Shown piece after piece: positions 4,401-58,700 of a stretch of 64,000 bases of DNA (position 1 is its first letter; every line of letters starts with the position of its first letter). A program made the translations under genes and the position numbers. The notes below the pieces were generated by a model. It saw nothing but the letters and a program-made list of their open reading frames with translations. It ran no database searches and had not been told where the DNA came from. This DNA comes from Owenia fusiformis (taxonomy: Eukaryota; Annelida; Polychaeta; Sabellida; Oweniidae), in the NCBI GenBank assembly GCA_903813345.2, contig CAIIXF020000003.1, positions 3,810,109 through 3,874,108 on the forward strand, in the 5' to 3' direction.

Positions 4401-4841
4401 TATAAAGGAAGTCTGAAAATGCACATGATGCGTCTCCATGGAGACGGTACGCCACATGAAAATGTTATTTGTCCGGATTGCGGAAAATCCTTCAGATTTA
4501 AAGATGATCTTCATAAACACAATGAAAGGGTCCATTTAAAGATAAAACGAGTTCAATGCAAAGGATGTGGATGTCAGTTTTACACAAAACGTGATCTAGA
4601 TCATCATAAATGTAAAGCCATGGCAACCGGGCTTCCACCAGTGCTACCATCTGTTAATATCATGGTTCCCCAGCAACAGTTGCCACAGCAACAACAAGTG
4701 ATAAACACAACACATCACCAACAGCAACAGCTAATACAACAAGGCACTGCCAATGCCCATCCTGTACTAATTCAACTGCCACCAATGCAACATGACATAT
4801 CACAGCAACCTGTCACAACACAAGATCTTAGTGGTCTGTAA
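1444..4841 (+). CDS. BTB/POZ domain C2H2 zinc-finger protein, two coding exons
   Basis: Probable nuclear DNA-binding transcription regulator of the BTB-ZF class. Coding exons are 1444-1770 and 2556-4841, joined in phase 0 (donor GTAAAA, acceptor CATTTTTAG), giving 870 residues. The start is the first ATG after the acceptor at 1430. Residues 1-127 are a compact BTB-like domain with the hallmark CDILL and PAHKAVLAACSRYF stretches; the domain is completed by exon 2. A glutamine-rich, then proline-rich low-complexity region follows (about 165-320), then a basic KKKKRK patch near 200-210. Ten zinc fingers lie in two blocks: four at about 382-517 and six at about 616-797, the last a degenerate CC-HC finger. 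The tail is again glutamine-rich. The final codons and the TAA belong to the first unit of a 54-bp tandem array. The DNA target and orthologue are not recognised. Confidence 0.9.
1883..2052 (+). repeat. 170-bp interspersed repeat, family F, copy 1
   Basis: Lies in intron 1 of the BTB zinc-finger gene. It runs from CCCCAAAATGCAATCTG to AATTATATTGGCTGTG and is richer in CG than its surroundings, with repeated TTTCGGTGCC words. A second copy in the same orientation occupies 41,752-41,920 in a VPS35 intron. No clear terminal repeats or target duplication were found, so the class is unknown. Confidence 0.7.
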
Positions 4842-5998
4842 TAGAATTGTATGTCACAGCAACCTGTAACAAGACAAGATCTTAGTGGTCTGTAATAGAA
4901 TTGTATGTCACAACAACCTGTAACAACACAAGATCTTAGTGGTCTGTAATAGAATTGTATGTCACAACAACCTGTAACAACACAAGATCTTAGTGGTCTG
5001 TAATAGAATTGTATGTCACAACAACCTGTAACAACACATGATCTTAGTGGTCTGTAATAGAGTTGTATGTCACAACAACCTGTCACAACATAAGATCTTA
5101 GTGGTCTGTAATAGAATTGTATGTCACAACAACCTGTAACAACACAAGATCTTAATGGTCTGTAATAAAATTGTATGTCACAACAACCTGTAACAAGACA
5201 AGATCTTAGTGGTCTGTAATAGAATTGTATGTCACAACAACCTGTAACAACACATGATCTTAGTGGTCTGTAAAAGAACTGTATGTCACGACAACCTGTC
5301 ACAACACAAGATCTTAATGGTCTGTAATAGAATTGTATGTCACAACAACCTGTAACAACACAAGATCTTAATGGTCTGTAATAGAATTGTATGTCACAAC
5401 AACCTGTAACAACACAAGATCTTAATGGTCTCTGTCACAACAACCTCTTACAACACAAGATCTTAATGGTCTGTAATAAAATTGTATGTCACAACAACCT
5501 GTCACAACACGAGATCTTAGTGGTCTGTAATAGAATTGTATGTCACAACAACCTGTAACAACACAAGATCTTAATGGTCTGTAATAGAATTGTATGTCAC
5601 AACAACCTGTAACAACACGAGATCTTAATGGTCTGTAATAGAATTGTATGTCACAACAACCTGTCACAACACGAGATCTTAGTGGTCTGTAATAGAATTG
5701 TATGTCACAACAACCTGCCACAACACGAGATCTTAGTGGTCTGTAATAGAATTGTATGTCACAACAACCTGTAACAACACAAGATCTTAATGGTCTGTAA
5801 TAGAATTGTATGTCACAACAACCTGTCACAACACGAGATCTTAGTGGTCTGTAATAGAATTGTATGTCACAACAACCTGCCACAACACGAGATCTTAGTG
5901 GTCTGTAATAGAATTGTATGTCACAACAACCTGCCACAACACAAGATCTCAGTGGTCTGGTATAGAATTGTATGTCACTACACAAAATCTCAGTGGGT
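4798..5998 (+). repeat. 54-bp minisatellite seeded by the stop codon (about 22 units)
   Basis: Unit 54 bp, about 22 copies plus a degraded last copy; one unit near 5,430 is shortened. The first unit is coding: it supplies the last codons of the zinc-finger protein (SQQPVTTQDLSGL) and its TAA. All later units lie in the 3' UTR but keep the same reading frame, because 54 is a multiple of three, and nearly all retain the in-frame TAA. For the same reason the complementary strand stays open over long stretches and gives spurious 18-residue repeat proteins. Confidence 0.95.
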
Positions 5999-25286: not shown

Positions 25287-27296
25287 TATTATGTCACCAC
25301 CAAAAGTGGTGACATATTGTTATGGTCTCCGTTTTTTTGCGACGGCGTCCGGCGGTTGGTGGTTGGCGTCCGGCGGTTGGTGGTTGGCGTCCGGCGGTTG
25401 GCGTCCGGCGGTTGGCGTCCGGCGTCTGTAACAATTTCTTACAACTTCCTATAACTTAACAAATACTGTTTAGACTGACTTCAATTTTTTTCTAAATCAT
25501 CTACATGTTCTAAGAAGTTCAAATCTGACTTTAGATTTGACATTTGACCTTCAATGACCTTAAAAAGGTCAAAAAGGTCTTTTTTCAACTTGCTTCACAT
25601 TGACTAATTTTTTTTTCAAAATCATCTACATGTTCTCAGAAATTCAAATCTGACTTTAGATTTGACATTTGACCTTCAAATCTGACTTTAGATTTGACAT
25701 TTGACCTTCAATGACCTTCTCGAGGTCAAAAAAGGTCAAAAAGGTCTGTTTTCAACTTGCTTCAAATTGACTAAATTTTTTTTTCAAAATCATCTACGTG
25801 TTCTCAGAAATTCAAATCTGACTTAAGATTTGACATTTGACCTTCAATGACCTTCTCAAGGTCAAAAAAGGTCAAAAAGGTCTGTTTTCAACTTGCTTCA
25901 AATTGACTAAAAAAAAATTTCAAAATCATCTACGTGTTCTCAGAAATTCAAATCTGACTTTAGATTTGACTTAAGATTTGACATTTGACCTTCAATGACC
26001 TTCTCAAAGTCAAAAAAGGTCAAAAAGGTCTTTTTTCAACTTGCTTCAAATTGACTAAATTGTTTTTTCAAAATCATCTACATGTTCTCAGAAATTCAAA
26101 TCTGACTTTAGATTTGACATTTGACCTTCAATGACCTTCTCAAGGTCAAAAAAGGTCAAAAAGGTCTGTTTTCAACTTGCTTCAAATTGACTAAAATTTT
26201 TTTTCAAAATCATCTACGTGTTCTCAGAAATTCAAATCTGACTTAAGATTTGACTTATGATTTGACATTTGACCTTCAATGACCTTCTCAAGGTCAAAAA
26301 GGTCAAAAAGGTCTGTTTTCAACTTGCTTCAAATTGACTATTTTTTTTTCAAAATCATCTACATGTTCTCAGAAATTCAAATCTGACTTTAGATTTGACA
26401 TTTGACCTTTAATGACCTTCTCAAGGTCAAAAAAGGTCAAAAAGGTCTGTTTTCAACTTGCTTCAAATTGACTAAAAAAAATTTCAAAATCATCTACGTG
26501 TTCTCAGAAATTCAAATCTGACTTTAGATTTGACTTTTGACCTTCAATGACCTTCTCAAAGTCAAAAAAGGTCAAAAAGGTCTTTTTTCAACTTGCTTCA
26601 AATTGACTAATTTTTTTTTTCAAAATCATCTACATGTTCTCAGAAATTCAAATCTGACTTTAGATTTGACATTTGACCTTTAATGACCTTCTCAAAGTCA
26701 AAAAAGGTCAAAAAGGTCTTTTTTCAACTTGCTTCAAATTGACTAAATTTTTTTTTCAAAATCATCTACATGTTCTCAGAAATTCAAATCTGACTTTAGA
26801 TTTGACATTTGACCTTCAATGACCTTCTCAATGTCAAAAAAGGTCAAAAAGGTATTTTTTCATCTTGCTTCAAATTGACTAAATTTTTTTTCAAAATCAT
26901 CTACATGTTCTCAGCAATTCAAATATGACTTTAGATTTGACATTTGACCTTCAATGACCTTCTCAAGGTCAAAAAAGGTCAAAAAGGTCTTTTTTCAACT
27001 TGCTTCAAATTGACTAATTATTTTTTTCAAAATCATCTACATGTTCTCAGAAATTCAAATCTGACTTTAGATTTGACATTTGACCTTTAATGACCTTCTC
27101 AAGGTCAAAAAGGTCAAAAAGATCTGTTTTCAACTTGCTTCAAATTGACCAAATTTTTTTTTCAAAATCATCTACATCTTTTCAGAAGTTCTAATTTGAC
27201 TTTACAAGTTCTCAGAAATTCAAATCTGACTTAAGTTTGAACTCATAATATTGTGAGCAACTAGGTGGTGACATTTTGTCATGTTAATGCCTTGTT
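25287..27296 (+). mobile_element. 2-kb element with a roughly 134-bp satellite core (family E, long copy 1)
   Basis: The left end is a perfect stem-loop, TGTCACCAC-CAAAA-GTGGTGACA (25,292-25,314), followed by repeats of CGTCCGGCGGTTGG. The core is about a dozen tandem units of roughly 134 bp, each with CATCTACATGTTCTCAGAA, TGACCTTCAATGACCTTCTC and CAACTTGCTTCAAATTGAC. The right end is GGTGGTGACATTTTGTCATG then TTAATGCCTTGTT, which also contains a small palindrome. A second long copy is at 49,951-51,435. No coding capacity. The layout resembles tandem-repeat-bearing non-autonomous elements known from bivalves (for example pearl or Helitron-like), but assignment is inference. Confidence 0.85.
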
Positions 27297-33959: not shown

Positions 33960-34042
33960 TTTGTCAGATCTCATGGGATTATACCAAAGTTGTGTTTATC
34001 GCAGTGAAAATTTGTGATCACATGACTCTGAAAAACAAAATG
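33960..34042 (+). promoter_or_regulatory. VPS35 first exon / proximal promoter with an M-box-like site
   Basis: The presumptive first exon ends exactly after an ATG (34,040-34,042), followed by a consensus donor GTGAGT. Just upstream, TCACATGA at 34,018-34,025 matches the M-box recognised by MITF/TFE-family factors, which control lysosome and endosome genes. CCATTTTGG lies near 33,950. The transcription start is not determined. Confidence 0.45.
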
Positions 34043-37000
34043 GTGAGTTGAATTTTGGAAATATTTTCACGATCGTTTCCTATTTCGATTTGAATAGATG
34101 ATTCGCAATATACTGCAAGTATTTTCACAACGCAATGATAAACATATATGCTTACATCAGTGCTATATGATATTTAGTGTGTTATATGCTGTTATGTTGT
34201 AATTTTGAATTGTAAATAATATGCAAAAATTGAAAAATCCTCCCCTTTTTCCTCATCGATATTTTATTTGATCTATCGCACGATGTTTTCAATAAGAAGT
34301 AAATGGATAATTGTTGAAACGCATGGAGACCCATATTTTTATCTTGTAAATCCAGCATGCTTTTATAAGCTTTTTACTGTACAACATTTCCATTCTCTAA
34401 AATATTTTTGGGTCACTGTATGGTACATGATGGGAAATAGTATCGAAATCTTCGAGGCTTCATCCAGCCCAGCCCAACCTCCACCGATACCCTTAGAACA
34501 TTGAAGCCCAGGCATACAAGTTACTAGTACTTACTCTAGTCTCTAGCCAATTCTTGGCTAGAAGTAATTTCATCTGGAACACCGTGAACGCTTGTGAAAA
34601 TAGCTGACCAGCGTGTCATAATTTTATTGAATATTTAAGAAAAAATCGCCAGATAAATAAATCATTAATTAAAATTTGAAATCAAATTTTTGCCAGTTTT
34701 CCACATCACAATTTGAATTGCGAGTACTAGTGTCAGACATCAACGACATTTGGTCCAGTTTTCGAATATCGCCATTTTTCTTGGAGCCGTTTGTTTTAAT
34801 TTTAGACGAAATCCTGACGAAATCATGCAATATCTCATTAAGGAGCCCAGCCAGTTCCATTTCAATTCATGAAATATTAACATGGCATTTTTATTTAGAA
34901 TAAAATATTTTACAATAGTTCATGGTGTTCCAGATGGAATTACTTCTCAAGAAACTCAAGTAAGCTGGAGCAGGTACAATGGAGAGAAGCCAGGCTTGTT
35001 AGCAAATGTACTTTCAAGGACAATTATAGTAAAATGGAATACTCTATCTTGTGATGTTTTAGAGAGTGATAGCTTATCAAGTTTTAAATCTTCTGACGCA
35101 GCACTTGCAGTTATCTGTCTCCCTCCCCTTAGGCCATTTTTAACCGCCCCCTGGACTCTTTGTAATATGATTATTTTATTTCGGCCATCTACAGTTATCC
35201 CCCACAGAGGAGCAAGAAAAGCTCTTGGATGAGGCTGTTGCAGTTATCTGACCCCCTCCCCCTGGGCCATATCATATGGAGTCTTTGTAATATTATTATT
35301 CTATTTCAGCCGTCTACACCACAGTTATCCCCCACAGAGGAGCAAGAAAAGCTCTTGGATGAGGCTGTTGCAGTTATCTGACCCCCTCCCCCTGGGCCAT
35401 ATCATATGGAGTCTTTGTAATATTATTATTCTATTTCAGCCGTCTACACCACAGTTATCCCCCACAGAGGAGCAAGAAAAGCTCTTGGATGAAGCCCTTG
35501 CAGTTGTCAAGCAGCAGTCATTTCAGATGAAAAGATGTCTGGTAAGATAGACTGAATTGTTTAAAGTCTAAATAAAGTTCAGTTTAATAAAACTTTATGT
35601 CACCATTTTCATGTCACCATCCGAAATGCTGACATATTGTTATAGTCTCCAACTTTTTTTGTGGATGGCAGTCAGCATTCAGCAGATGTGTAACTAATGT
35701 AACAAATGGCAGGTGACATATTGCATGTTAGTGCCTTGTTTCCTCCTCATGTGGCTCTGTTAATAAAATTGTACAATTTTTGTTGCAGGACAAGGGCAAG
35801 TTGATGGATGGACTGAAGCATGCTTCAAACATGTTGAGTGAACTCAGGACGTCCATGCTGTCACCAAAAAACTATTACGAACTCTGTATCCTTTTATTCA
35901 CACTATTTCACTACTCAGTCCAAAGAGTATCACCAATAATCATAAATATTCTACATGATTGAGCCACCAAAGGTTTTATATTTGAATTTCCTGGCAGATA
36001 CTCATCTTTTTGAAATAATTTCTTAAGACAACAGCCTAAGAAATTAGCTTTGTCCTGTTGCTATTCAAACTTGAGTATTTTATAAATTCAAATTTAAAAT
36101 TAAAAAATTATCAATATCCACCTTAACCTATGGCAGACATGGCAATATCTGATGAACTTCGCCACTTGGAACTATATTTAGTGGATGAATTTCAGAAGGG
36201 GCGTAAAGTGGCGGATCTGTATGAACTCGTGCAATATGCTGGGAATATTATCCCCAGACTGTGAGTAGTAATTGAGATTGCACAGCTGCAATTAAGTGAT
36301 TTAATTGAAGTAGGTGGTCTTTTCACTCACGATAGATTCTGAAAATATAACTTTTTCCAATTTTTCGTAAAAATGATTTGTTATGTACATTTACATTTAC
36401 TTAGAGAAAATTACGTATTCGCTTATTTTTCCCTTGTAGTCTACTGCATGTTAGATCATTGATATCGAAATATTCATCAGTCAAAAACATCCCAGTTTCT
36501 TCGCTCAATTAACAGTAAACATGATTTCCATAATTAGCTAGGCTGGCAGTTGATCCAATGCCAGATTGGAAACCAATGTAGTAAAACCTGTAAAATGGAA
36601 CATTTCAGTTAAAGCATTCATGTCTCATGACCCATTGATTTAAAATAGATATACCTCTTTTAGTGTCACACCTCCTTAGCAAACACTTTTTTTGATCAAA
36701 TGTGTTACTTTTTACAGATTTCACTCTATTTCCAGGTTCATTGCCATTGTCAAAATGTACTGAAAATATGTACTGTTAAAAACTAAAATAAAAATCCATT
36801 AAAAATTAATAAAAAATTTCCTCTGTTGAAATACAAATGCTGTAACCATAACTGTATTTTTTGTTTCTAGGTATCTCTTAATCACAGTTGGTGTCGTGTA
36901 CATCAAAGCGAGTGAACTCTCGCGGAAGGATATCTTAGCCGATCTTGTGGAGATGTGTCGCGGTGTGCAACATCCTCTTAGGGGACTATTTCTCCGGAAC

Positions 37001-40000
37001 TACTTACTGCAGTGTACAAAAAATGTCCTTCCCGATGTAGAGGCAGAAGGGGCCAGGTATATAGAGTTAAACGTATGTAAGTGGAACACCCTTGTATAAG
37101 TGGAACACTCTTGGTTCCACTTAAAGTGTTTCACTTACAGAAGTTGTTCAACTTGGCATAGTTCACACTACATATCACTCCCCCCAGTTTTCTGCAAGTT
37201 AAAATGCTCAATTCTGCAAGTGAAATTAGTGAATTCTGCAAGAAGAAAGGGCTAATTCTGCAGAAATTCCGCGGATATTCGCGGCATTTTTTTATATAAT
37301 ATAAATAACTGTTATTAATTTATGTCTTTGTTTAACTTTCTGATGAGAACCGAAAGAAAAACTAATGGTTTTCGAACCAGTAAACGGGAAAATATCGTGA
37401 TAGTCAGGTAGTCAGTCACTACATACATGCTGCCATCTAACGGCAGAAATCAAACGATGGCGTTTAGAATTTTCACTTCGCATAATTTGGGTTATTTCTG
37501 CAAGGGATTTGACTGAAAACGTGTCAAATTGTTACAGGTAAGACTGACTTTTTAAACTTTTGGAAAATATATGGATTCTGCGGAAAATTCCGCGGAAATT
37601 GACCAAAATAGTTGATTCTGCAATTCCGCGGGCAGAGGCAAATTCCGTCCGCGCTCTGCAAACACGGAATCCTGGGGGCAGTGACATATACACTGAGAGA
37701 AATTAAAATTCAAAATTCAAAAGTTGCTCTCAAAAATAAAAAAAGTGAAACAGTCAAATAATTTTAGTTTACAGTGTCTTATTTAAACCTCTTAATAAAT
37801 AAAGGAATTTGAATTTAAAATAAATTTCCTGTATTGTCAATGTCACATTCATGCATGAATTCATGCAAAATGTGACATTTTCAATACCCCATCTCATTAA
37901 GCTATCATTTCCCTTCTATTGCAGTGAATCTGAGACTGGAACTGTAAAAGATTCTGTTGATTTTCAATACCTTATCTCATTAAGCTATCATTTCCCTTCT
38001 ATTGCAGTGAATCTGAGACTGGAACTGTAAAAGATTCTGTTGATTTTCAATACCTTATCTCATTAAGCTATCATTTCCCTTCTATTGCAGTGAATCTGAG
38101 ACTGGAACTGTAAAAGATTCTGTTGATTTTCAATACCTTATCTCATTAAGATATCATTTCCCTTCTATTGCAGTGAATCTGAGACTGGAACTGTAAAAGA
38201 TTCTGTTGATTTTCAATACCCTATCTCATTAAGATATCATTTCCCTTCTATTGCAGTGAATCTGAGACTGGAACTGTAAAAGATTCTGTTGATTTTCAAT
38301 ACCTTATCTCATTAATTAAGCTATCATTTCCCTTCTATTGCAGTGAATCTGAGACTGGAACTGTAAAAGATTCTGTTGATTTTCAATACCTTATCTCATT
38401 AAGATATCATTTCCCTTCTATTGCAGTGAATCTGAGACTGGAACTGTAAAAGATTCTGTTGATTTTCAATACCTTATCTCATTAAGCTATCATTTCCCTT
38501 CTATTGCAGTGAATCTGAGACTGGTACTGTAAAAGATTCTGTTGATTTTCAATACCTTATCTCATTAAGATATCATTTCCCTTCTATTGCAGTGAATCTG
38601 AGACTGGAACTGTAAAAGATTCTGTTGATTTTCAATACCTTATCTCATTAATTAAGCTATCATTTCCCTTCTATTGCAGTGAATCTGAGACTGGAACTGT
38701 AAAAGATTCTGTTGATTTTCAATACCTTATCTCATTAAGATATCATTTCCCTTCTATTGCAGTGAATCTGAGACTGGAACTGTAAAAGATTCTGTTGATT
38801 TTCAATACCTTATCTCATTAAGATATCATTTCCCTTCTATTGCAGTGAATCTGAGACTGGAACTGTAAAAGATTCTGTTGATTTTCAATACCTTATCTCA
38901 TTAAGCTATCATTTCCCTTCTATTGCAGTGAATCTGAGACTGGAACTGTAAAAGATTCTGTTGATTTTCAATACCCCCCTCATTAAGATATCATTTCCCT
39001 TCTATTGTAGTGAATCTGAGACTGGAACTGTAAAAGATTCTGTCGACTTTATCCAATTGAACTTTGCTGAGATGAACAAACTATGGGTCCGAATGCAGCA
39101 TCAGGGGCATTCTAGGTAATTATATATATTTTCTTGTTTGTTAGAATGTATCTTGTTTGTGAGAATGTATCTTGTTCATGAGAGTGTATCTTGTTTGTCA
39201 GAATGTATCTTGTTTGTGAGAATGTATCTTGTTCATGAGAATGTATCTTGTTTGTTAGAATGTATTTTGTTTGTGTGAATGTATCTTGTTTGTTAGAATG
39301 TATCTTGTTTGTGTGAATGTATCTTGTTTGTTAGAATGTATCTTGTTTGTGTGAATGTATCTTGTTTGTTAGAATGTATCTTGTTTGTGTGAATGTATCT
39401 TGTTTGTGTGAATGTATCTTGTTTGTTAGAATGTATCTTGTTTGTGTGAATGTATTATGTATATAATGTGTGTATGAATGTTACCTATGGTGTGTTTGAG
39501 CGTTAACACATGTTTCCTCTAATCAGTTTGACTGATGAAACTCCCTTTTTGGGGTTGATGATTTGGCTGAGTGGACTGGAGCACACTGTAAGCTAAGCCT
39601 CTGTGGCTGTAACAATCAGGTTGAGAGTTCAAGTTCGTGTTTATTCATTTAATATGGAGTATATAGTATATACCCTTTTGCCCAGAAGCCAGTAAGTAAT
39701 AATTGTTTCTCTCTAACTAGGATGAATAATTTTAGAATTTTGCTGCCGGTTTTAGCTTAGTGGGTTTGGAGGCCATTTTGAATTTTTCGATAAAAATGTG
39801 AAAGTATCACTTTGTGTCTTGGTTAATTTGCAGAGATAAAGAAAAGCGTGAACAAGAGAGACGGGAACTGAGAATTCTGGTCGGTACAAATCTTGTGCGA
39901 TTGAGTCAGCTTGAATGCGTTGACTTGGAGACGTACAGGAAGGTCATACTGCCACCTATATTAGAGCAAGTAGTCAGCTGCCGAGACCCTATAGCTCAGG

Positions 40001-43000
40001 AATATCTAATGGAATGTGTTATTCAGGTATGTAATGTAAATTATGTAAAATGTATTTAAATAGAAATTATTACAGGGTACAACGATATAATGGGGGGCAA
40101 TAATGGCATGTAGATCACCCACATTAATATGGCCTTCAACAACTACAAACACTTGAAAAAAACAATTTAAATAGTTTTAATTCAAAATGTATGAGATATA
40201 ACGTTTAAGTACACTGTATGTTATAGGTGTTCCCTGATGAATTCCACTTACAGACCCTCAACACATTCCTTCGTGCATGTGCAGATCTTCATAAAGATGT
40301 CAATGTAAAAAACATCATCATTTCCCTCATAGACAGGTTGGTATTAATGTACTCTCATACAAGGGTTGTTCAAAAAATCAATGTAAAAAACATCATCATT
40401 TCCCTCATAGACAGGTTGGTATTAATGTACTCTCATACGAGGGTTGCTCAAAAAGTCAATGTAAAAAACATCATCATTTCCCTCATAGACAGGTTGGTAT
40501 TAATGTACTCTCATACGATGGTTTTTCTAAAAGTCTGAACTCTTTGAAGTTTCACTTCAGAAAAATATAGAATTATAGCATTCGACCATGACTAATTCAA
40601 ATCATGTAATGTCTATCCTAGTGATCTTTCATCCGGATTACATGTTTCTAATAGTCCCTGGAGACTGGCTTCAGAGCCACTCTTGGTATCACACTCACAG
40701 TATAAATGTACTCTCATACGAGGGTTGTTTTAAAAATTCAAACTGAAAATATCAAATTTCAGGCTGGCACAGTTTGCCCACAAAGATGAAAGTGTAGGCA
40801 TACCATCAGAAATCCAACTGTTTGACATATTTTCCCAGCAGATCTCTACAGTTATACAGGTAGCTATAATATGTCTTTCTTCCTGACTTGAACAGTACTT
40901 CTAACTCGTAATCCCCCATACTCCCCCCTCCCCATCGCAGGTATATAAATAGAGAATGGCGTACCATCAGAAATCCAACTGTTTGACATATTTTCCCAAC
41001 AGATCTCTACAGTTATACAGGTAGCTATTATATATCTTTCTTCCTGACTTGAACAGTACTCCTAACTCGTAATTCCCCCCCCCCTCCCCATTGCAGGTAT
41101 ATAAATGGAGAATGGCATACAATCTGAAATTCAAATTTTTTCCACTTTGTTCTCAAAGATTTCAAAAATTGTAGAGTGAAAATTTCCATAACTCTTGATT
41201 AAAGATCCTTTTTAAGAACCTATTCCATTCAACCTTCATGTAGTAGTTAATTTGAAGACTAAAGTAATGGCCATTCTATTTTGTATTCATTGTATTTCAG
41301 AATCGTCCAGATATGCCACCGGAAGATATTGTTTCACTACAAGTGGCTCTTATCAACCTAGCACTGAAATGTTACCCAGATAAGACAGAATATGTTGACA
41401 AAGTATTAGAAACAACGGAGGAAATATTTAACAGATTGAACTTAGACCAGTAAGTTAGAACTTAGACCAGTAAGTTAGAACTTAGACCAGTAAGTTAGAA
41501 CTTAGACCAGTAAGTTAATTATGGTTTTTTGTTTCTGACTCACTCTATTTGTACAAGATTATTCATGGAAAAATATCAATTATTGATAAAGTTAGAGCAT
41601 ATAGTGCATTACTTCTGAGACAACCCTCGTACACTGTGATTATGAAAGAATGGATTGTTAAAATATTACCCTTGATAACACATCATGACAGGATAACTTA
41701 AGTTATTACCAAAAATAATTTGCCCCTATTCTTGTCCAAATGTGCCTACACCCCCAAAATGCAATCTGATTTTGGACGCCGTTTTGATGCCAAATTTCGG
41801 TGCCACGGCGCCAAATTGACTGACTAGTCCGGTGAGAAATTTTGGTGTCGAAAATTTTCGGTGCCGGAACAGCGCGAAATTTTTTCGATGCCAAAACGGC
41901 GCCGAATTATATTGGCTGTGTATACTCTGGTATTGATCTGATTTTCATGTCTGAAAATGATAAATATCCTCAAGCAAGTCAGCCTTTATGAAATGCAGCC
42001 AAAAAACAATAGTCATTTGAGTGGAAGGTTAATGGTTAATTGAGTCTTTTTGGTAAAACTGGAGAAAACAGGGTAACCCAAAAGTATGTTTATAGTTATT
42101 CAACAATTTTTAAACTGTAACTGTAAACCTACTCTCGGGCCACCCAGTATATCCTCACAAAGCTAAAAAATCTAGAGAGAATTGTCAGAACTACTTCAAA
42201 ATTGTATCGATTTTAACAATTTTATTCAATCGAAGAATTAACATGTTCTACTTGTTAAAAGTTTGTTACAATTTGTATTTCAGTTTGGAGCACACCACAG
42301 CAGTATCAAAGGAACTTACAAAACTTATGAAAATACCAGTGGACAACTATAACAATGTTCTTACGCTTGTTAAACTGGAACATTATGGCCCTCTCTTTGA
42401 GTACTTTGACTACACAGCCAGGAAGGGCATTAGCTGTTATATTATCAATAATGCCCTTGATAACGATACACAGATACCAACACAGGAACAGGTATGGATA
42501 TTATCAATAATGCCCTTGATAACGATACACAGGAACAGGTATTGATATTATCAATAATGCCCTTGATAACGATACACAGATACCAACACAGGAACAGGTA
42601 TGGATATTATCAATAATGCCCTTGATAATGATACACAGATACCAACACAGGAACAGGTATGGATATTATCAATAATGCCCTTGATAACGATACACAGATA
42701 CCAACACAGGAACAGGTATGGATATTATCAATAATGCCCTTGATAACGATACACAGGAACAGGTATTGATATTATCAATAATGCCCTTGATAACGATACA
42801 CAGATACCAACACAGGAACAGGTATGGATATTATCAATAATGCCCTTGATAACGATACACAGATACCAACACAGGAACAGGTATGGATATTATCAATAAT
42901 GCCCTTGATAATGATACACAGATACCAACACAGGAACAGGTATGGATATTATCAATAATGCCCTTGATAATGATACACAGATACCAACACAGGAACAGGT

Positions 43001-46000
43001 ATGGATATTATCAATAATGCCCTTGATAATGATACACAGATACCAACACAGGAACAGGTATGGATATTATCAATAATGCCCTTGATAATGATACACAGAT
43101 ACCAACACAGGAACAGGTATGTATATTATTAATAATGCCCTTGATAATGATACACAGATACCTACACAGGAACAGGTATGGATATTATCAATAACGCCCT
43201 TGATAATGATACACAGATACCAACACAGGAAAAGGTATGGATATTATCAATAATGCCCTTGATAATGATACACAGATACCTACACAGGAACAGGTATTGA
43301 TTTTGATGCGGTAAAACATCTAAGATTGCACAGTTGTAATGAACACCTTCCTACTTGGAGTTTTCAAACGTAAATGAACCCTGTTTGTAAAGAACACCTG
43401 TTTAAAAGGTTGTGTACTGTGAATATACTGTTTCCTCTTTGAACATTACTATAAAGTTGCATATGATGTCAAAGAATGTATTGTATTTTTTCAATCTTTC
43501 AATTTCAGTTCAATCTTTGGCATTCATCAACTAATTTTTCTGGCACCTAATAGTTTGTGATTTAATTGCATTATAAGTTACAAATTACAAGTTTTATATC
43601 CCTTTCAACATTTTCTGTGTTGATAAATTTTTATTTATTTTAATCATTCATTACACTATTGAGATAAAGAAAAAAAGAAAAAAATTGTAAAATACTTTTG
43701 ATATTTTATTTTCAGGTTGACGCAATCCTTGGATTGGTTGGCCCACTCATCGTGGACCAGAGCGACCAACCAGAAGAAGAGGAAGATCCCGAAGATTTCA
43801 TGGAGGAACAAGGCCTGATGGGAAGGTTCGTCAACCTGTTACTCGCAGATGATCCCGATCAACAATATTTAGTAAGTATAATCACTATATGTTGGGGCAG
43901 GGTGAGCACTCTGGGTCACGTCGTTGGGGCAGGGTGAGCACTTTGGGTCACGTCGTTGGGGCAGGGTGAGCACTCTGGGTCATGTCGTTGGGGCAGGGTG
44001 AGCACTCTGGGTCACGTCGTTGGGGCAGGGTGAGCACTTTGGGTCACGTCGTTGGGGCAGGGTGAGCACTTTGGGTCACGTCGTTGGGGCAGGGTGAGCA
44101 CTCTGGGTCACGTCGTTGGGGCAGGGTGAGCACTCTGGGTCACGTCGTTGGGGCAGGGTGAGCACTCTGGGTCACGTCGTTGGGGCAGGGTGAGCACTCT
44201 GGGTCACGTCGTTGGGGCAGGGTGAGCACTCTGGGTCACGTCGTTGGGGCAGGGTGAGCACTTTGGGTCACGTCGTTGGGGCAGGGTGAGCACTTTGGGT
44301 CACGTCGGCAATTGAGTGTTGATGATAAATCTATGGGGCATTGACCACCAGTGAGCCCATATTCTTCCTAAGTTGTATGATGATGCATAGTCGATGGTTC
44401 TATAGTCAATTGTTGAATAGTCAGTGATTGCATAGTCATCGATGATGGTACAATATAAGATCATTAACTCAATAAGTCTTTGCACTTGGTTTTTGAACCC
44501 TCACTATGATACTTAGCTCAATACGTATATATAATATTAACCCATTGAAATTTTTGGAGTACTTGTGTCACAGTTTGATGTAAAAACTGTTAACACGAAT
44601 CTCACTTTCATTTTCAGATACTGAACGCAGCGAGGAAACATTTTGGAGCAGGCGGAAATAAGCGAATAAAATACACACTGCCATCTATAATATTTGGAGC
44701 TTACAAATTAGCATACAAGTATAAGAGCATAGCAGAAGAGGTAGGTTTTACCCAGAATTATTCATAAACATTAGGGAGGTTTAATGTTACAGGTTTAAGA
44801 GAACTTAGGCGTGAACTATAGTCCTTAGCTCATTAATGACCAACCCCGAGAGATTTTTTCTATGATGTCATAATCGTATCTGACCAACACTGAGATATCT
44901 TGTCCAATATATGTCACACAATTTGTATCAATAATCCTACCAAATATTGTAGGGGTCTATTGGGGAACATGGTTGGGTGCAATTCAAATATATTGTCATT
45001 GGCTTCACAATTGCATAAAACATCGCAAAGAGGGTGTTGATACAGTCAATTTTATGCTTATATGAAAACTTGCCATTTTGCTCAATCTTTCATCAAAATG
45101 GCCAGTCACCAACAGAAAACCTCCAAAAAAGCTTTGGCCAGCAATGAGTTAGGGGATCAGTTAAAAAATAAGAAAATTAGATACAAGATTTAGAAAAATC
45201 CTGAAAAATTTCCATATACTGCCACAATTCTTAGTTAAGTGCTGCCCTCTTTACAACATGCTCAAATCTAAAACCAAATAACAATTTTTCATGTATATAG
45301 GATGAGAAATGGGAAAAGAAATGTCAAAAGATCTTCTCATTCTGCCATCAAACAATAGGAGCCCTCATCAAGGCGGAGCTAGCAGAGTTGCCATTAAGGC
45401 TTTTCCTCCAGGGTGCCGTATCTGCGGGCGAGATCGGCTTCGAAAATCATGAATCTGTGGCGTATGAGTTCATATCTCAAGTAAGTTGATATTTTGTGAT
45501 CTCTTAATGTTGTACAGTTCTGTTATTCAGTTTAAATCATTATGGCAAAAATACTCATGATGCACCCTACTCCCCATTATGCTGAGTGTTGTTGATGCCA
45601 ATTTTGAGTCAAAAATTCAACGAAATTTGGTGATGTTGGGAGAGCATTGAATCAAAGTGGATAAAGATAAAAAACTACGACTGAAATTCATTTTTCACAA
45701 TTAATCTGAAAACATAGGATCAAATCCTATGCTAAGGGCTGATGTAAAAAAGTCATTTCATTTGAGAAACATTTTCAATAATAACTCCAGACTTTTATGT
45801 CATTTTATGACAAGACACAAATACATGACATAGCAAAATGAAGGAGATTTTCTTGCTTCCTAGTGTGACATTCCAGTGAACCTTATCTTCTTACAGTCTC
45901 TACGAGCCATCTCCAGATAATAAATAAACCATCAAGCCTCATGCATTGCTTTATTCCCAGGTTTAAAATCTGTGATTAGCTTATTCATCCAAACATTCTC

Positions 46001-47438
46001 AAAATACAGTTGCATCATGTGTTAAAACTCGGCGTTTAAATGCATGTTTATTTTTCAGGCATTTTCCATATACGAAGATGAAATATCTGACAGTAAAGCG
46101 CAGCTCTCTGCCATTACGTTAATAATAGGAACTGTTGAACAAATGAAATGCTTTGGAGATGAAAACCATGAGCCTCTGAGAACCCAGTGCGCACTAGCAG
46201 CCTCTAAATTGTTAAAGAAGCCAGATCAGTGTCGTGGAGTTGTGACGTGTTCACATTTATTCTGGTCTGGAAAGTCAAAAGACAACAATGGAGAAGAGGT
46301 AAATATTTAATAACTTGGAAATTATAGCTAAAGATAGTCGACAGAGTTAAGGGGTATTCAAAAAGTATTTTTGGGATACTTTGTAACCTTTAGTACTACA
46401 GACTGCCAACAAATATGTGGATAGCCATGGTACAAGACTAAGTTTTGTTTTGAAAAATCATGGTTTATTTTAACAAATACATTTGCATACACATTGTCAT
46501 GTAACTCTATTCTTCTTTAAGATGCGGGATGGCAAACGTGTTATGGAATGCTTAAAGAAAGGATTGCGGATTGCCAACCAATGTATGGATAGCTCAGTCC
46601 AAGTCCAACTGTTCGTAGAAATACTCAACCAATATATTTACTTCTATGAGAAGGGCAATGACCAGGTGAGAAATACACTATACATTCTCACACCTATGTA
46701 ACCTGAAATTCAAATCATTTAATTACCTGTTTCAAGTTCAATGGTTCTTGCAAATGCAGGTTTTCAAAACACATTCGTATCAATAAAGCCAAGTTACTTG
46801 AGTTGAAATTGACACTCCAAGACACTCAGTCATTCTTTTCCTAGGACTGTTCTATGTCGAGGACCTTTAGCATGATAAATGCCAACAATTGGGTTGATTT
46901 AAAGATAATGTCATTTTAAGTGCAAAATTGTACAATTTCTTACTATTTAGTGATTTTGATTTATGATGAGGACTTAAAGGAATGAAAACCTCACCATTGG
47001 ATCGATTTAAAGGTTATAAAGTGCAAGGTTGTTAGATTTTGTTATTTTAAGTGCAACATTATATAAGTTTAAGTATATAACATATAACAAGTTTAAGTAG
47101 AACATTGTAGATGTATGTCTTAGTACAACATTTAATGATTTTTGAATGCAAATTGTGGATTTGCTGCATCACAGAGATTCCAATGTGTTGAGAGCCCCCC
47201 CCCCCCACCCGATAGTCCAAATGTGTGAAGTATAATTTAATGATTACATGGTTTCGTCTTCCAGGTCACTGTTGCGGTGCTGAATCAACTTATTGGAAAG
47301 ATCCGGGAAGATCTACCAAACCTCGAGGCCAACGAAGAAACAGAACAAATCAACAAACATTTCCAGAACACTTTAGAACATTTAAGAGGTCAAATGGAGT
47401 CAGATGGGGAATCAAAATATGAGGGCCTTACACTTTAA
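34040..47438 (+). CDS. VPS35: VPS35, core subunit of the retromer complex (17 coding exons)
   Basis: Large alpha-solenoid scaffold of retromer, which recycles cargo from endosomes to the Golgi and plasma membrane with VPS26 and VPS29. Exons: 34040-34042, 35440-35541, 35789-35885, 36137-36260, 36871-37056, 39011-39115, 39834-40026, 40227-40336, 40763-40859, 41301-41449, 42284-42491, 43716-43871, 44618-44740, 45301-45480, 46059-46298, 46522-46665, 47265-47438. All junctions are GT-AG and in phase, giving 796 residues, the human length. The VPS26-binding PRLYLL motif is at 107-112 and spans intron 4. [12 protein letters not shown]-type and FGAGGNKRI stretches, IREDLPNLE and a YEGLTL end are typical. 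Asp622 in YEDEISD corresponds to human Asp620. Exon 1 carries only the start codon; an in-frame ATG six codons upstream (34,022) could extend the protein. Six exon junctions are tandemly duplicated. Confidence 0.97.
34559..34948. mobile_element. 390-bp inverted-repeat element in VPS35 intron 1
   Basis: Terminal inverted repeats of about 30 bp: TAGAAGTAATTTCATCTGGA... at 34,559-34,589 and its complement ending ...GGAATTACTTCTCA at 34,918-34,948. No coding capacity and no obvious target duplication. Confidence 0.75.
35180..35500 (+). repeat. Triplicated acceptor of VPS35 exon 2 (about 130-bp unit)
   Basis: The acceptor TTCTATTTCAG and the first 55 or so nucleotides of exon 2 occur three times, with exon starts near 35,186, at 35,310 and at 35,440 (the functional copy). 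The first copy has lost its AG (TTTCGG). The second has an intact AG, but the exon copy runs into TGA shortly after the duplicated part. Only the last copy continues into the rest of exon 2 and its donor. Confidence 0.9.
35594..35740 (+). mobile_element. Short family E copy in VPS35 intron 2
   Basis: 147 bp with the TGTCACCAT...GACATATTGTTATAGTCTCC left end and the GGTGACATATTGCATGTTAG...GCCTTGTT right end, lacking the satellite core. Confidence 0.75.
37176..37683. mobile_element. 508-bp inverted-repeat element in VPS35 intron 5 (TSD ACATAT)
   Basis: Ends CACTCCCCCCAG and CTGGGGGCAGTG are inverted repeats. ACATAT flanks both sides (37,170-37,175 and 37,684-37,689). The interior repeats ATTCTGC and the palindromic CCGCGG in AATTCCGCGG contexts. 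Non-autonomous; hAT-like by its CA...TG ends and short duplication, which is inference. Confidence 0.8.
37880..39055 (+). repeat. Array of 13 decoy acceptors plus the real acceptor of VPS35 exon 6 (83-bp unit)
   Basis: Fourteen tandem copies of an 83-bp unit; two copies carry a few extra bases around ATTAATTAAG. Each unit contains a polypyrimidine tract and AG (CCCTTCTATTGCAG) followed by the first 40 or so nucleotides of exon 6 (TGAATCTGAGACTGGAACTG). The last copy, starting at 39,011, runs on into the full exon and donor. The functional acceptor reads TTGTAG, whereas all decoys read TTGCAG. 83 is not a multiple of three, and a decoy used without further splicing reaches a stop in the next unit. 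Confidence 0.95.
39126..39465 (+). repeat. 19-20-bp minisatellite in VPS35 intron 6
   Basis: About 17 copies of TGTATCTTGTTTGTKAGAA-type units begin about 10 bp after the exon 6 donor. It does not contain exon sequence. Confidence 0.9.
40299..40534 (+). repeat. Three in-frame copies of the VPS35 exon 8 donor (78-bp unit)
   Basis: A 78-bp unit made of the last 38 or so nucleotides of exon 8 plus the start of intron 8 occurs three times. Donors ACAG/GTTGGT lie after 40,336, 40,414 and 40,492. Because 78 is a multiple of three and no stop occurs, all three donors keep the phase into exon 9. Use of the second or third would insert 26 or 52 residues. The intronic part contains TACGAGGGTTGCTCAAAAAG, which looks like a mariner terminal repeat. 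Confidence 0.9.
40790..41150 (+). repeat. Duplicated VPS35 exon 9 end and donor (about 161-bp unit)
   Basis: The 3' part of exon 9 and its donor (GTTATACAG/GTAGCT, first at 40,860) recur at 40,961-41,021 with an intact donor. A third, decayed copy lies at about 41,111. The second copy also has an AG (CATCGCAG, 40,940) upstream, so it could be read as a separate 80-nt pseudo-exon. Confidence 0.85.
41438..41518 (+). repeat. Four copies of the VPS35 exon 10 donor (20-bp unit)
   Basis: The 20-bp unit GAACTTAGACCAGTAAGTTA is repeated four times, placing identical GTAAGT donors at 41,450, 41,470, 41,490 and 41,510. The first continues the protein in phase. Later ones would add in-frame TAA (from CAGTAAG) and are non-coding. 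Confidence 0.92.
41752..41920 (+). repeat. 170-bp interspersed repeat, family F, copy 2
   Basis: Same orientation and ends as the copy at 1883-2052, lying in VPS35 intron 10. It shares GACTGACTAGTCCG and GAATTATATTGGCTGTG. Confidence 0.7.
42447..43298 (+). repeat. Array of about 15 copies of the VPS35 exon 11 donor (59-bp unit)
   Basis: A 59-bp unit (two copies shortened to about 45 bp) made of the last 45 or so nucleotides of exon 11 plus the first bases of intron 11. Each copy ends in a donor, CACAGGAACAG/GTATGG or GTATTG. The first, at 42,492, is the functional one by alignment with VPS35 and phase to exon 12. About 14 decoys follow, the last near 43,292. 59 is not a multiple of three, so decoys shift the frame. 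Confidence 0.95.
43892..44307 (+). repeat. 32-bp G-rich minisatellite in VPS35 intron 12 (13 units)
   Basis: Thirteen copies of GTTGGGGCAGGGTGAGCACT... begin about 20 bp after the exon 12 donor. The unit does not contain exon 12 sequence, but each has GGGTGAGC, a donor-like word. Confidence 0.93.
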
Positions 47439-49950: not shown

Positions 49951-51435
49951 TTTATTATGTCACCACCAAAAGTGGTGACATATTGTTATGGTCTCCGTTT
50001 TTTTGCGACGGCGTCCGGCGGTTGGTGGTTGGAGGTTGGCGTCCGGCGTCTGTAACAATTTCTTACAACTTCCTATAACTTAACAAATACTGTTTAGATT
50101 GAGTTCAATTTTTTTCTAAATCATCTACATGTTCTCAGAAGTTCAAATCTGACTTTAGATTTGACATTTGACCTTCAATGACCTTCTCAAGGTCAAAAAG
50201 GTCTTTTTTCAACTTGCTTCACATTGACTAAATTTTTTTTCAAAATCATCTACATGTTCTCAGAAATTCAAATCTGACTTTAGATTTGACTTTAGATTTG
50301 ACATTTGACCTTCAAATCTGACTTTAGATTTGACATTTGTCCTTCAATGACCTTCTCAAGGTCAAAAAAGGTCAAAAAGGTCTGTTTTCAACTTGCTTCA
50401 AATTGACTAAAAAAAATTTTTAAAATCATCTAAGTGTTCTCAGAAATTCAAATCTGACTTTAGATTTGACCTAAGATTTTACATTTGACCTTCAATGTCC
50501 TTCTCAAAGTCAAAAAAGGTCAAAAAGGTCTTTTTTCAACTTGCTTCAAATTGACTAATTTTTTTTTCAAAATTATCTACATGTTTTCAGAAATTCAAAT
50601 CTGACTTTAGATTTGACATTTGACCTTCAATGACCTTTTCAATGTCAAAAAAGGTCAAAAAGGTATTTTTTCATCTTGCTTCAAATTGACCAAATCTTTT
50701 TTTCAAAATCATCTACATGTTCTCAGAAATTCAAATATGACTTTAGATTTGACTTTAGATTTGACATTTGACCTTCATTGACCTTCTCAAGGTCAAAAAA
50801 GGTCAAAAAGGTCTTTTTTCAACTTGCTTCAAATTGACTAATTTTTTTTTCAAAATCATCTACATGTTCTCAGAAATTCAAATCTGACTTTAGATTTGAC
50901 ATTTGACCTTTAATGACCTTCTCAAGGTCAAAAAAGGTCAAAAAGGTCTGTTTTCAACTTGCTTCAAATTGACCAAATTTTTTTTTCAAAATCATCTACA
51001 TCTTTTCAGAAGTTCAAATTTGACTTTACAAGTTCTCAGAAGTTCAAATCTGACTTTAGATTTGACCTTTGACCTTCAATGACCTTCTCAAGGTCAAAAA
51101 GGTCTTTTTTCAACTTGCTTCAAATTGACTAATTTTTTTTTCAAAATCATCTACATGTTCTCAGAAGTTCAAATCTGACTTTAGATTTGACATTTGACCT
51201 TCAATGACCTTTTCAAGGTCAAAAAGGTCTTTTTTCAACTTGCTTCAAATTTACTTAATTTTTTTTTCAAAATCATCTACATGTTCTCAGAAGTTCAAAT
51301 CTGACTTTACATTTGACATTTGACCTTCAATGACCTTCTCAATGTCAAAAAAAGTCAAAGAGGTATTTTTTCAACTTGCTTTAAATTGACCAAATTGTTT
51401 TAGGTGGTGACATTTTGTCATGTTAATGCCTTGTT
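49951..51435 (+). mobile_element. 1.5-kb satellite-bearing element (family E, long copy 2)
   Basis: Same left stem-loop (TGTCACCACCAAAAGTGGTG...), GTCCGGCGGTTGGTGGTTGG block, core of about nine to ten units of roughly 134 bp, and GGTGGTGACATTTTGTCATG...GCCTTGTT right end as the 25,287-27,296 copy. The unit number differs between copies. Confidence 0.88.
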
Positions 51436-55740: not shown

Positions 55741-58700
55741 ATGGCTCAAAACTTGGTTCGATTAGCCGCCAAGAGAATCCTCTCCATACCACAGAGATCC
55801 ATTAGCGTGACAGCAATTCGTAAGCAAGATGTGGCCCTGACACAAGAGGAGAGAGACAGAATATACCCAAGAATAGGTAAAGGATAAATAATACTTTCTG
55901 TATATGCGAAAGTTCATTATATATGTGAATGTTCATCAGACATACAAATGCACACCTATTCTTTATCTATCATTAACACTTAAGCACAAGTCAATAAACT
56001 CAGTACAAGTAAAGCTGTATATTTTTGTGTTGTCATTTTATATGAACAGGTTTGTGGTAATTTCTATATAATTTTCTCATTCAGGAGACAGAGATGTTGT
56101 TGGTTATGGATTCAACGGCACTGCCAGTTATATGGACAGAGAAGAAATGCCTTTCCCAGCCATTCGATTTAAAGAAAATACAGATGATGTTTTAGCCCTA
56201 AGAGAACTAGAAAAAGGAGACTGGTCAAACATGACTATAGAAGAAAAAAAAGCATGTAAGTGAAGTTTTCTATTGAATTATAAAAATATCTAATAGATAT
56301 TCAAGGTTTCACAATTAACATTATTTATTCAGGTTACTGTTAATTGAAATATCTGTGGTCATTATGTGATTTACACACAATTTTCTTGAGACCTATCACA
56401 CAATGTTGAATTGTTCATTCATTATACTTCAGCGAACCCTTCCAAATAGACGAGATTCACAATTTATTGTCAAGTTTCAGCTTTTGGTTAGCTGAAAAAT
56501 TCTGACATATTTCAGAGTATCATTCCACGTTTCAACACATACAAAATGAATTGCTTAAATTTTTCATTGCAGTGTACCGCTCCAGCTATAGACAAACATA
56601 TCGCATATTCACAATTTAGTGTCCAGTTTCAGCTTGTCCAGTTTCAGCTTTTGATTAACTGAAAAACTGACATATTTTGAGATTACCATTCTACCTTCCA
56701 ACACACATGAACTCAATCGTTCAATTTCATATTGCAGTGTACCGCTCCAGCTATAGACTAACATTTGCTGAAATGTTTGCACCTACTGGGGAGTGGAAAG
56801 CCGTCTTTGCTGCTTTCATGGTCTGTCTTGGTGTCACTGGATGGATTGTTATCTTCATGAAAAAATTTGGTAAGTCACTGTTTAAAAAAATTTTTTTTAC
56901 TAATTTCTTTGGTCATACTAAAAAAATTTCTTTTCTTTTTATTTGTTAGATCACATCTTATTTCTTTTATCTACGAGATTTCTAATCATTGAAATCTAGA
57001 TACACTGCATTCAGAACAACTACACTATTGTACATACAGTAAAACCTGTTTGGTGTAACACCTTCACAAGTTGAATATTTTGCAGAGTCTTGAGACACAT
57101 TAACTTATGTAAATGAACCTCTATTACTGAACCAGGTGTTTCATTTACACAGGTCAGGGGTCTCATTAGAATTTCTCAAAACAGGCTAAATAAATGAAAA
57201 CAATAGGCAAAATTAATGGAAATCATAGATTTAACATGGAAAAGTTGAAAAGGCCTTAAAAACAACAGGCAATATTGTGAAAACAATAGGTGAAAATCAC
57301 CTGTTGCCTGCTGCTAATTAAACCCCTGCAGGTTTTATTGTTTCATATTCAAAAATGTAAAATAACTGCAATTATTCATATATTTGTTATAAAATGTATA
57401 GATGTTTATTGGTGCTAATGCATAGCTTAGATATAAGGCTCACATTTCTGCTTTGCTTTCCATGTGTTTATGTTTTCAGGGGAAGAGATGAATTAAAATA
57501 TGTCACCTAAAATTGTCATATGTTTGCCCTGTTCTAGTCAATACATGGCCAACACTTAAATCCTTGTCTGTTCCCCCTTCTTAAAATAAGTTGTTCTGTT
57601 TGTGAGAACCTCTCTTCTTCTATTGATTTAGTTGCCAGAGTTTTATTGAAATGAATGATTACAAGAGATACTATTAAAAATTCTACTTATAGACTGAAAA
57701 CACTAGATTTCACTATAAATATCCTGAAAATATTCTTTAGTTCTGTTTCAAAAAAATCCAAGAACTGAATCTGTTATGTTTGACTAATTGGACTTCAATC
57801 AGCATTTCAGTTCTGAGATTTGCACCTTTGTCAAACTTACCTTAACTGTAAATGTATTGGGTAATCCCCTTGTTAGTATTCCTCTTTTTTGTTCATTGCA
57901 TGCTAAATGCCTTGCTTTATAGCAGAACAATGACTGTGGTTGTAAAATACTGATTTGTCAAATATTTTTTATAAAACTGAGTTGACTTATAAGCTTGCTT
58001 TAAATGTTTGCTGCTAGCAAGTGGGGGTTACAAAATCTATCCATGTATACAGACGTTATGGAAAGGTTTAGATTGGAGATATCCTTATGGGAATACCAAA
58101 GAGGAAACAAGAAATACTAGGCCTAGAGATATAAGAGCAGTGATCTCCCCAGGATTTTCCTCTCGTGGGTGCAAAATTCTCATTTTCACAATTCACACTT
58201 TTTTTATTTTCAAGTGGGTGCAAATGGATTTTCAGGTGGGTGGAGTCCTGTTTTTAAAATCTCAGGTGGGTTCTGCGCCCACTTGCTTTAATGCTGGGGA
58301 GATCACTGAAGAGTAAATGATTTTGTCTTGGACCCTGTGTTGTCTGAGTAAGAGATGAGTTAATGTTCCAGTTTTGGCAGTGCTTTTGTGATGCATTGCA
58401 CAAATTGCTTAACAGTGTTGTCCTTGTGACTGTCCTGCACTATGTTATACGTCAGCATAATGGTACAAACTTGGGTAATCCTTTAATCCTCTGTATGCAT
58501 CATAATGGAACAGCCGTGGTATATGCAGCATACTTGTACAACACATGCCTTGCCTGTCCTGCAGTTTGCTGTATGCTCTATAATGATGCAACCTTGGCCT
58601 GGCCTACAATGTGCTATATGAAGCGTAATGCTACAACCTTGGCCTTGCGGTCAATGTGCTATATGCAGCATAATGCTACAACCTTGGCCTGGCGTTCACT

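Follow-up and report, generated by a model that had tools for sequence, protein, structure and literature searches.

Tandem arrays at the exon edges of VPS35

The VPS35 gene of Owenia fusiformis raises the question of why tandem repeats lie across so many exon-intron junctions of a conserved gene, and whether such repeats arise by preference at the junctions or are tolerated there. The gene is located in a window of 64,000 nucleotides at positions 3,810,109 to 3,874,108 of contig CAIIXF020000003.1; by window we mean the whole stretch of DNA that was analysed. An earlier note on this DNA had placed six VPS35 junctions inside tandem duplications and had argued that this is not what random minisatellite birth predicts. 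The gene was rebuilt by hand, which gave the following model in the coordinates of the window.

34040..47438, forward strand: VPS35 gene, 17 exons, 796 amino acids
34040-34042, 35440-35541, 35789-35885, 36137-36260, 36871-37056, 39011-39115, forward strand: VPS35 exons 1-6
39834-40026, 40227-40336, 40763-40859, 41301-41449, 42284-42491, 43716-43871, forward strand: VPS35 exons 7-12
44618-44740, 45301-45480, 46059-46298, 46522-46665, 47265-47438, forward strand: VPS35 exons 13-17

The translated coding sequence of the 17 exons has 796 amino acids and one stop codon, which is terminal, and the solved VPS35 chain, also of 796 amino acids, aligns with the predicted protein over residues 1-795. Translation and alignment thus agree with the exact length of 796 residues that had been claimed for the protein despite the arrays. 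The predicted protein matches the Vps35 family, and a search for this family in the genome (498.26 Mb in 525 contigs) returned 12 matches, which belong to a single locus. The genome also gave three matches to an erythrocruorin-linker model, a family known as annelid-specific, and no match in a search for mitochondrial COX1. The conserved protein is obtained with the first copy at the donors and the last copy at the acceptors.

Arrays were called with TRF, and eight arrays with a score of at least 100 were found in the gene.

35152..35505, forward strand: 130-bp unit, 2.8 copies, at the acceptor of exon 2; the last copy holds the acceptor at 35440
37877..39050, forward strand: 83-bp unit, 14.1 copies, at the exon 6 acceptor, the last copy of which is at 39011
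39132..39455, forward strand: 19-bp unit, 17 copies, intronic; begins about 16 bp downstream of the exon 6 donor
40299..40535, forward strand: 78-bp unit, 3.0 copies, at the exon 8 donor; the first donor copy follows 40336
40797..41134, forward strand: 161-bp unit, 2.1 copies, at the exon 9 donor; the first donor copy follows 40859
41438..41517, forward strand: 20-bp unit, 4.0 copies, at the exon 10 donor; the first donor copy follows 41449
42439..43301, forward strand: 59-bp unit, 15.0 copies, at the exon 11 donor; the first donor copy follows 42491
43891..44307, forward strand: 32-bp unit, 13 copies, intronic; begins about 20 bp downstream of the exon 12 donor

The TRF calls confirm that the acceptors of exons 2 and 6 and the donors of exons 8, 9, 10 and 11 lie inside tandem arrays, and that the unit lengths are all different (130, 83, 78, 161, 20 and 59 bp, in 2 to 15 copies); the two other arrays are purely intronic. 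The 83-bp unit is made of about 40 bp of exonic and 43 bp of intronic sequence, the copies of the 20-bp array match at 100%, and the 59-bp array includes shortened copies. Random placement would be expected to give 1.7 junction-spanning arrays instead of six among the eight (P = 7e-4), a value that is inflated because the gene was chosen for being extreme.

Searches of the genome returned 14 matches for the 83-bp unit, whose identity to the query copy is 93-100%, and seven matches for the 59-bp double unit. All of these matches are at VPS35, which indicates that the two units arose in place, although missing matches in such a search do not prove rarity. A dispersed intron-like element was also considered as the source of the two units and was rejected on the same matches.

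In addition to the intronic VPS35 arrays that begin at 39132 and 43891, an intronic array at positions 583-995 of L089 starts about 10-20 bp from a donor and does not span it. These near-donor arrays hint at a wider preference for exon neighbourhoods.

Edges of the COX4 and zinc-finger genes

The same architecture had been reported at exon 4 of COX4 and at the stop codon of a zinc-finger gene, both in the window.

56467-56599 and 56634-56764, forward strand: two diverged copies of a COX4 acceptor with the adjoining exon edge
4800..5982, forward strand: array of a 54-bp unit that takes in the last codons, the stop codon and the 3' flank of a C2H2 zinc-finger open reading frame (2556-4841)

The gene at the first of these sites matches the COX4 family. 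The two diverged copies with their acceptor bear out the duplication of this junction, and on our reading the exon involved, exon 4 of the earlier note, is the third coding exon. The two-copy COX4 duplication is older, and the interval 56467-56764 is absent from the TRF rows for the window. The claim made for the zinc-finger gene held, since its open reading frame ends inside the array, with the last codons and the stop codon copied; TRF gave periods of 54, 108 and 162 for this array. It has the architecture of the junction arrays at an edge that is without splicing, and translation stops in its first copy.

Junction arrays in other genes and random placement

Because VPS35 had been chosen by the earlier note, other genes were sampled by protein family before the repeat search. 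The first sample consisted of 19 genes with 297 junctions: 10 of the 13 chaperonin-family loci, 8 of the 10 adaptin-family loci and one ADH3-like locus. The loci omitted (three of 13 for PF00118 and two of 10 for PF01602) were single-exon or single weak matches. The second sample consisted of 109 proteasome and myosin exon matches with 400 bp on each side, covering 204 junctions, and its test was fixed beforehand; it took all 29 PF00227 matches and 80 of the 92 PF00063 matches, 12 clustered alternative exons having been omitted before fetching. Exons were those of our own splice-aware model after 31 exon predictions, and the copies predicted within two arrays, had been discarded by eye; three exons of the second sample were re-set by eye, and all three had counted as array-spanning before.

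Arrays were counted if they had a score of at least 100 and a shortest period of at least 15, which gave units of about 15 to 260 bp. In the null model each array was collapsed to one unit and placed randomly in its gene, wholly exonic placements being excluded.

In the first sample, 14 of the 48 arrays span a junction, compared with 6.9 expected (P = 0.003). When TRF's own period is used the expectation becomes 8.95 (P = 0.02, and P = 0.15 at a score of 300); the reduction of multiples to the shortest period was adopted after this result had been seen. The second sample has seven junction-spanning arrays among 15, against 4.1 expected (P = 0.06), and the second pre-specified test, which applies the intronic rate of the first sample, gives an expectation of 4.2 (P = 0.14), or of 2.7 without dispersed elements (P = 0.02). 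For both samples together, from which VPS35 is excluded, 21 of 63 arrays span a junction and 11.1 are expected (P = 5e-4). These main figures include the arrays of two dispersed elements; their exclusion raises the ratio, to 14 of 44 against 5.3 in the first sample and to 21 of 59 against 9.4 in both. A local control, limited to units ending at most 150 bp from a junction, gave 20 of 30 against 12.5 expected (P = 8e-4).

The junction excess is thus about 1.6 to 2 times random placement. In this the earlier claim that the arrays do not follow random minisatellite birth pointed the right way but exaggerated the effect, which is roughly twofold. The count of repeats at exon edges that the same note had proposed as a check, run here on samples, shows an excess, but the replication taken alone is not significant (P = 0.06 or 0.14). 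Arrays contain 21 of the 501 junctions of the two independent samples and six of the 31 counted in VPS35; VPS35 is therefore an extreme case of an architecture that is not peculiar to it.

Wholly exonic arrays with a score of at least 100 are missing (none among the 63, compared with 7.3 expected from free placement), and one weak wholly exonic array of two copies, with a score of 65, was seen in L084. Taken together, the combined excess and the missing exonic arrays indicate that the arrays that persist are not randomly placed.

Several of the sampled genes carry long arrays. One chaperonin gene (L011-L013, G000:C11:119700-143000, reverse strand) has four junction arrays, and two of its donors bear arrays of 105 bp x 49, about 5.2 kb long, and of 53 bp x 20. 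A second, separate array of the 53-bp unit lies inside the next intron of this gene. The donors of two adaptin genes bear arrays of 151 bp x 23 and 82 bp x 34. An adaptin-family exon (L021-L022, G000:C3:16254300-16271700, reverse strand) has an array at both ends, 119 bp x 3 at the acceptor and 21 bp x 9.7 at the donor. In the ADH3-like gene no junction array was found, and its arrays are intronic only.

Properties of the junction arrays and of their extra splice sites

The 27 junction arrays comprise 15 at donors and 12 at acceptors, and their unit length, which differs by site, ranges from 20 to 259 bp. Six of the 27 units are multiples of three, where nine would be expected by chance; since the other 21 are not, the message cannot as a rule include the copies. 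Among the extra splice sites, 150 of the 154 that were traced have kept GT or AG. The tracing covered part of the copies, for example 10 of the roughly 49 sites of one array and 1 of the roughly 15 of the 59-bp array in VPS35. The mean site score is 9.2 for the exon-proximal sites and 8.8 for the extra sites (Wilcoxon P = 0.28).

Homogeneity is greater in junction arrays than in intronic arrays, with a median internal match of 96% compared with 87% (P = 0.005), and the median G+C content of their units is 0.39, compared with 0.34 for intronic units. When the arrays were divided at an internal match of 93%, a split chosen after seeing the data, 17 of the 30 arrays at or above this value span a junction (7.0 expected), compared with 4 of the 33 below it (4.0 expected). 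For two arrays, one with 23 and the other with 34 copies, a consensus drawn from the extra copies is identical to the exon-proximal copy, which indicates that these are recent expansions. In the 53-bp chaperonin array the extra copies share changes that are absent from the coding copy. The search for microhomology at breakpoints gave no clear signal, the surplus length of arrays of two to three copies clustering near 0, as it would by chance. For the position of the junction within the unit, a Kolmogorov-Smirnov (KS) test gave P = 0.07 with one row (L036) mismeasured, its acceptor having been set too early, and nothing is concluded from this value.

Comparison with known systems

The original paper on the amphioxus Adh3 mirage reportedly dates from 2002. 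Passages of later papers describe mirages as tandem repeats across exon-intron boundaries in the amphioxus Adh3 and globin genes (PMC3087553), and also in troponin C and PGBD5 (PMC3902484). According to the same passages, amphioxus mirages give no aberrant mRNA and leave splicing undisturbed (PMC3087553, PMC3902484). Their length is unstable between and within individuals. The arrays described here span the boundary, occur at both exon ends, vary in unit length and keep the splice signal in most of the copies traced. As far as these passages go, both systems consist of minisatellite-like duplications across donors or acceptors, with site-specific unit lengths, extra copies that bear splice signals, and a gene that remains coding. 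The Owenia fusiformis arrays differ in reaching about 49 copies, in affecting many housekeeping genes and in having been counted against random placement, and the ADH3-like gene of this species is without a junction array, unlike the Adh3 mirage that is described for amphioxus.

Other systems are similar in part. Intron gain by tandem genomic duplication (the Rogers model, as cited in PMC3087553, with a potato RdRp case outlined in PMC4974935) shares tandem duplication that includes splice signals, whereas here the introns are already present. Introner-like elements (PMC4457414) share repeated DNA with splice signals, but are dispersed families, in contrast to the 83-bp and 59-bp VPS35 units, which were matched at their own locus only. 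We found no report of mirages outside amphioxus among the entries listed in searches of open-licence papers, and the extracts of two Owenia papers contain no mention of them. The architecture is thus already known from amphioxus, and what is new is its occurrence in an annelid and the first count against random placement.

If the counts extend genome-wide, about one junction in 24 (21 of 501) would sit in a tandem array, and mirages would be common outside chordates instead of being an amphioxus curiosity. They would then offer a natural test bed for the choice of the spliceosome among many equal sites, for minisatellite birth and for the proposal that junction duplications seed new introns.

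Origin and persistence of the arrays

The arrays are probably mirages, that is, minisatellites from tandem duplications that crossed exon edges and were kept because they are harmless there. Short tandem duplications would arise often in and around the genes of this genome, and a duplicated stretch may cross an exon edge by chance and later grow by unequal exchange or slippage. Duplications wholly within a coding exon would harm the protein and be removed. When a donor is duplicated, the original exon and the first donor would stay intact and the additional copies would fall in the intron; when an acceptor is duplicated, the last copy would preserve the exon. As long as splicing takes the exon-proximal site, the additional edges and sites would leave with the intron and the protein would be unchanged. 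Extra copies of a stop codon would become 3' UTR. The persistence of edge-crossing copies may therefore be neutral.

Tolerance is supported by the lack of wholly exonic arrays, by the stop-codon array and by the 21 units that are not multiples of three. Since the extra sites have not decayed, the splicing machinery would have to pick the exon-proximal site among equals if the protein is made. Exon definition is a natural candidate for this choice.

Plain tolerance with uniform birth does not account for everything, however, since junction arrays exceed the expectation set by intronic ones both in the combined count and in the local control. If duplicated strong splice sites were somewhat harmful a deficit at junctions would be expected, contrary to the excess. 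The earlier note had offered a choice between a duplication process that favours junctions and selection that tolerates them; our data support tolerance, and the excess beyond random gives the first option something to explain, though only about twofold. The concentration of the excess in homogeneous arrays would agree with arrays that are born more often at exon edges and then lost sooner, but also with a dilution of the introns by transposons or with the proneness of G+C-richer exonic DNA.

That duplications are born preferentially at exon-intron junctions is possible but doubtful. They might arise, for example, through DNA breaks linked to transcription or splicing, through R-loops at exon edges, or because G+C-richer exonic DNA duplicates more readily and survival is limited to copies that extend into the intron. 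The excess in the first sample, in the combined samples and within the nearest 150 bp speaks for such a bias, as do its confinement to homogeneous, presumably young arrays and the greater homogeneity and G+C content of the junction units. Against it, the replication alone falls short by either test, TRF's own period weakens the first sample, part of the intron length is derived from transposons and therefore dilutes the intronic rate, and a breakpoint signature was not found in the surplus lengths of arrays of two to three copies. Slightly more doubtful still is the idea that duplication is actively biased towards exon edges as hotspots of birth and that selection later erodes what they produce, which would make the arrays thousands of natural tests of competition between sites. 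Were this true, the spliceosome would have to choose the exon-proximal site among 2 to about 49 equally strong ones.

Ordinary random minisatellite birth, with VPS35 as the tail of a random distribution that the earlier note happened to pick, appears improbable. VPS35 was indeed picked as extreme, as its share of junctions inside arrays indicates, and the replication alone is compatible with chance; the combined excess was nevertheless obtained without VPS35, and the missing wholly exonic arrays also argue against this explanation.

It is very unlikely that the extra copies are functional, with alternative tandem sites giving in-frame protein variants. In VPS35 the reading frame of exon 8 continues without a stop through all three 78-bp copies (40227-40492), which could allow variants with 26 or 52 additional residues, and a 96-bp unit of a chaperonin gene is open through its copies, but multiples of three are fewer among the junction units than chance would give. 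An assembly artefact, in which collapsed or expanded reads or haplotypes gave false copies, is just as unlikely, since copies within an array differ by recurring variants (the 83-bp copies and the shortened 59-bp copies), the arrays are present on many chromosomes and the assembly was probably built from PacBio reads and optical maps, even though globin mirages of amphioxus are described as aberrantly assembled in a draft genome (PMC3087553).

Dispersed repeats and a myosin exon cluster

Several unrelated places hold copies of a dispersed element that contains a tandem array of about 135 bp (TTCAAATCTGACTTTAGATTTGACATTTGACC...).

25675-27204 and 50311-51401 of the window, and also introns of L006 and L023: dispersed element with the ~135-bp array

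Additionally, the interval G000:C9:37986009-37994334, outside the window, holds 12 consecutive same-strand matches to positions ~23-84 of the myosin head model, an arrangement that suggests tandem alternative exons clustered in a gene for muscle myosin.
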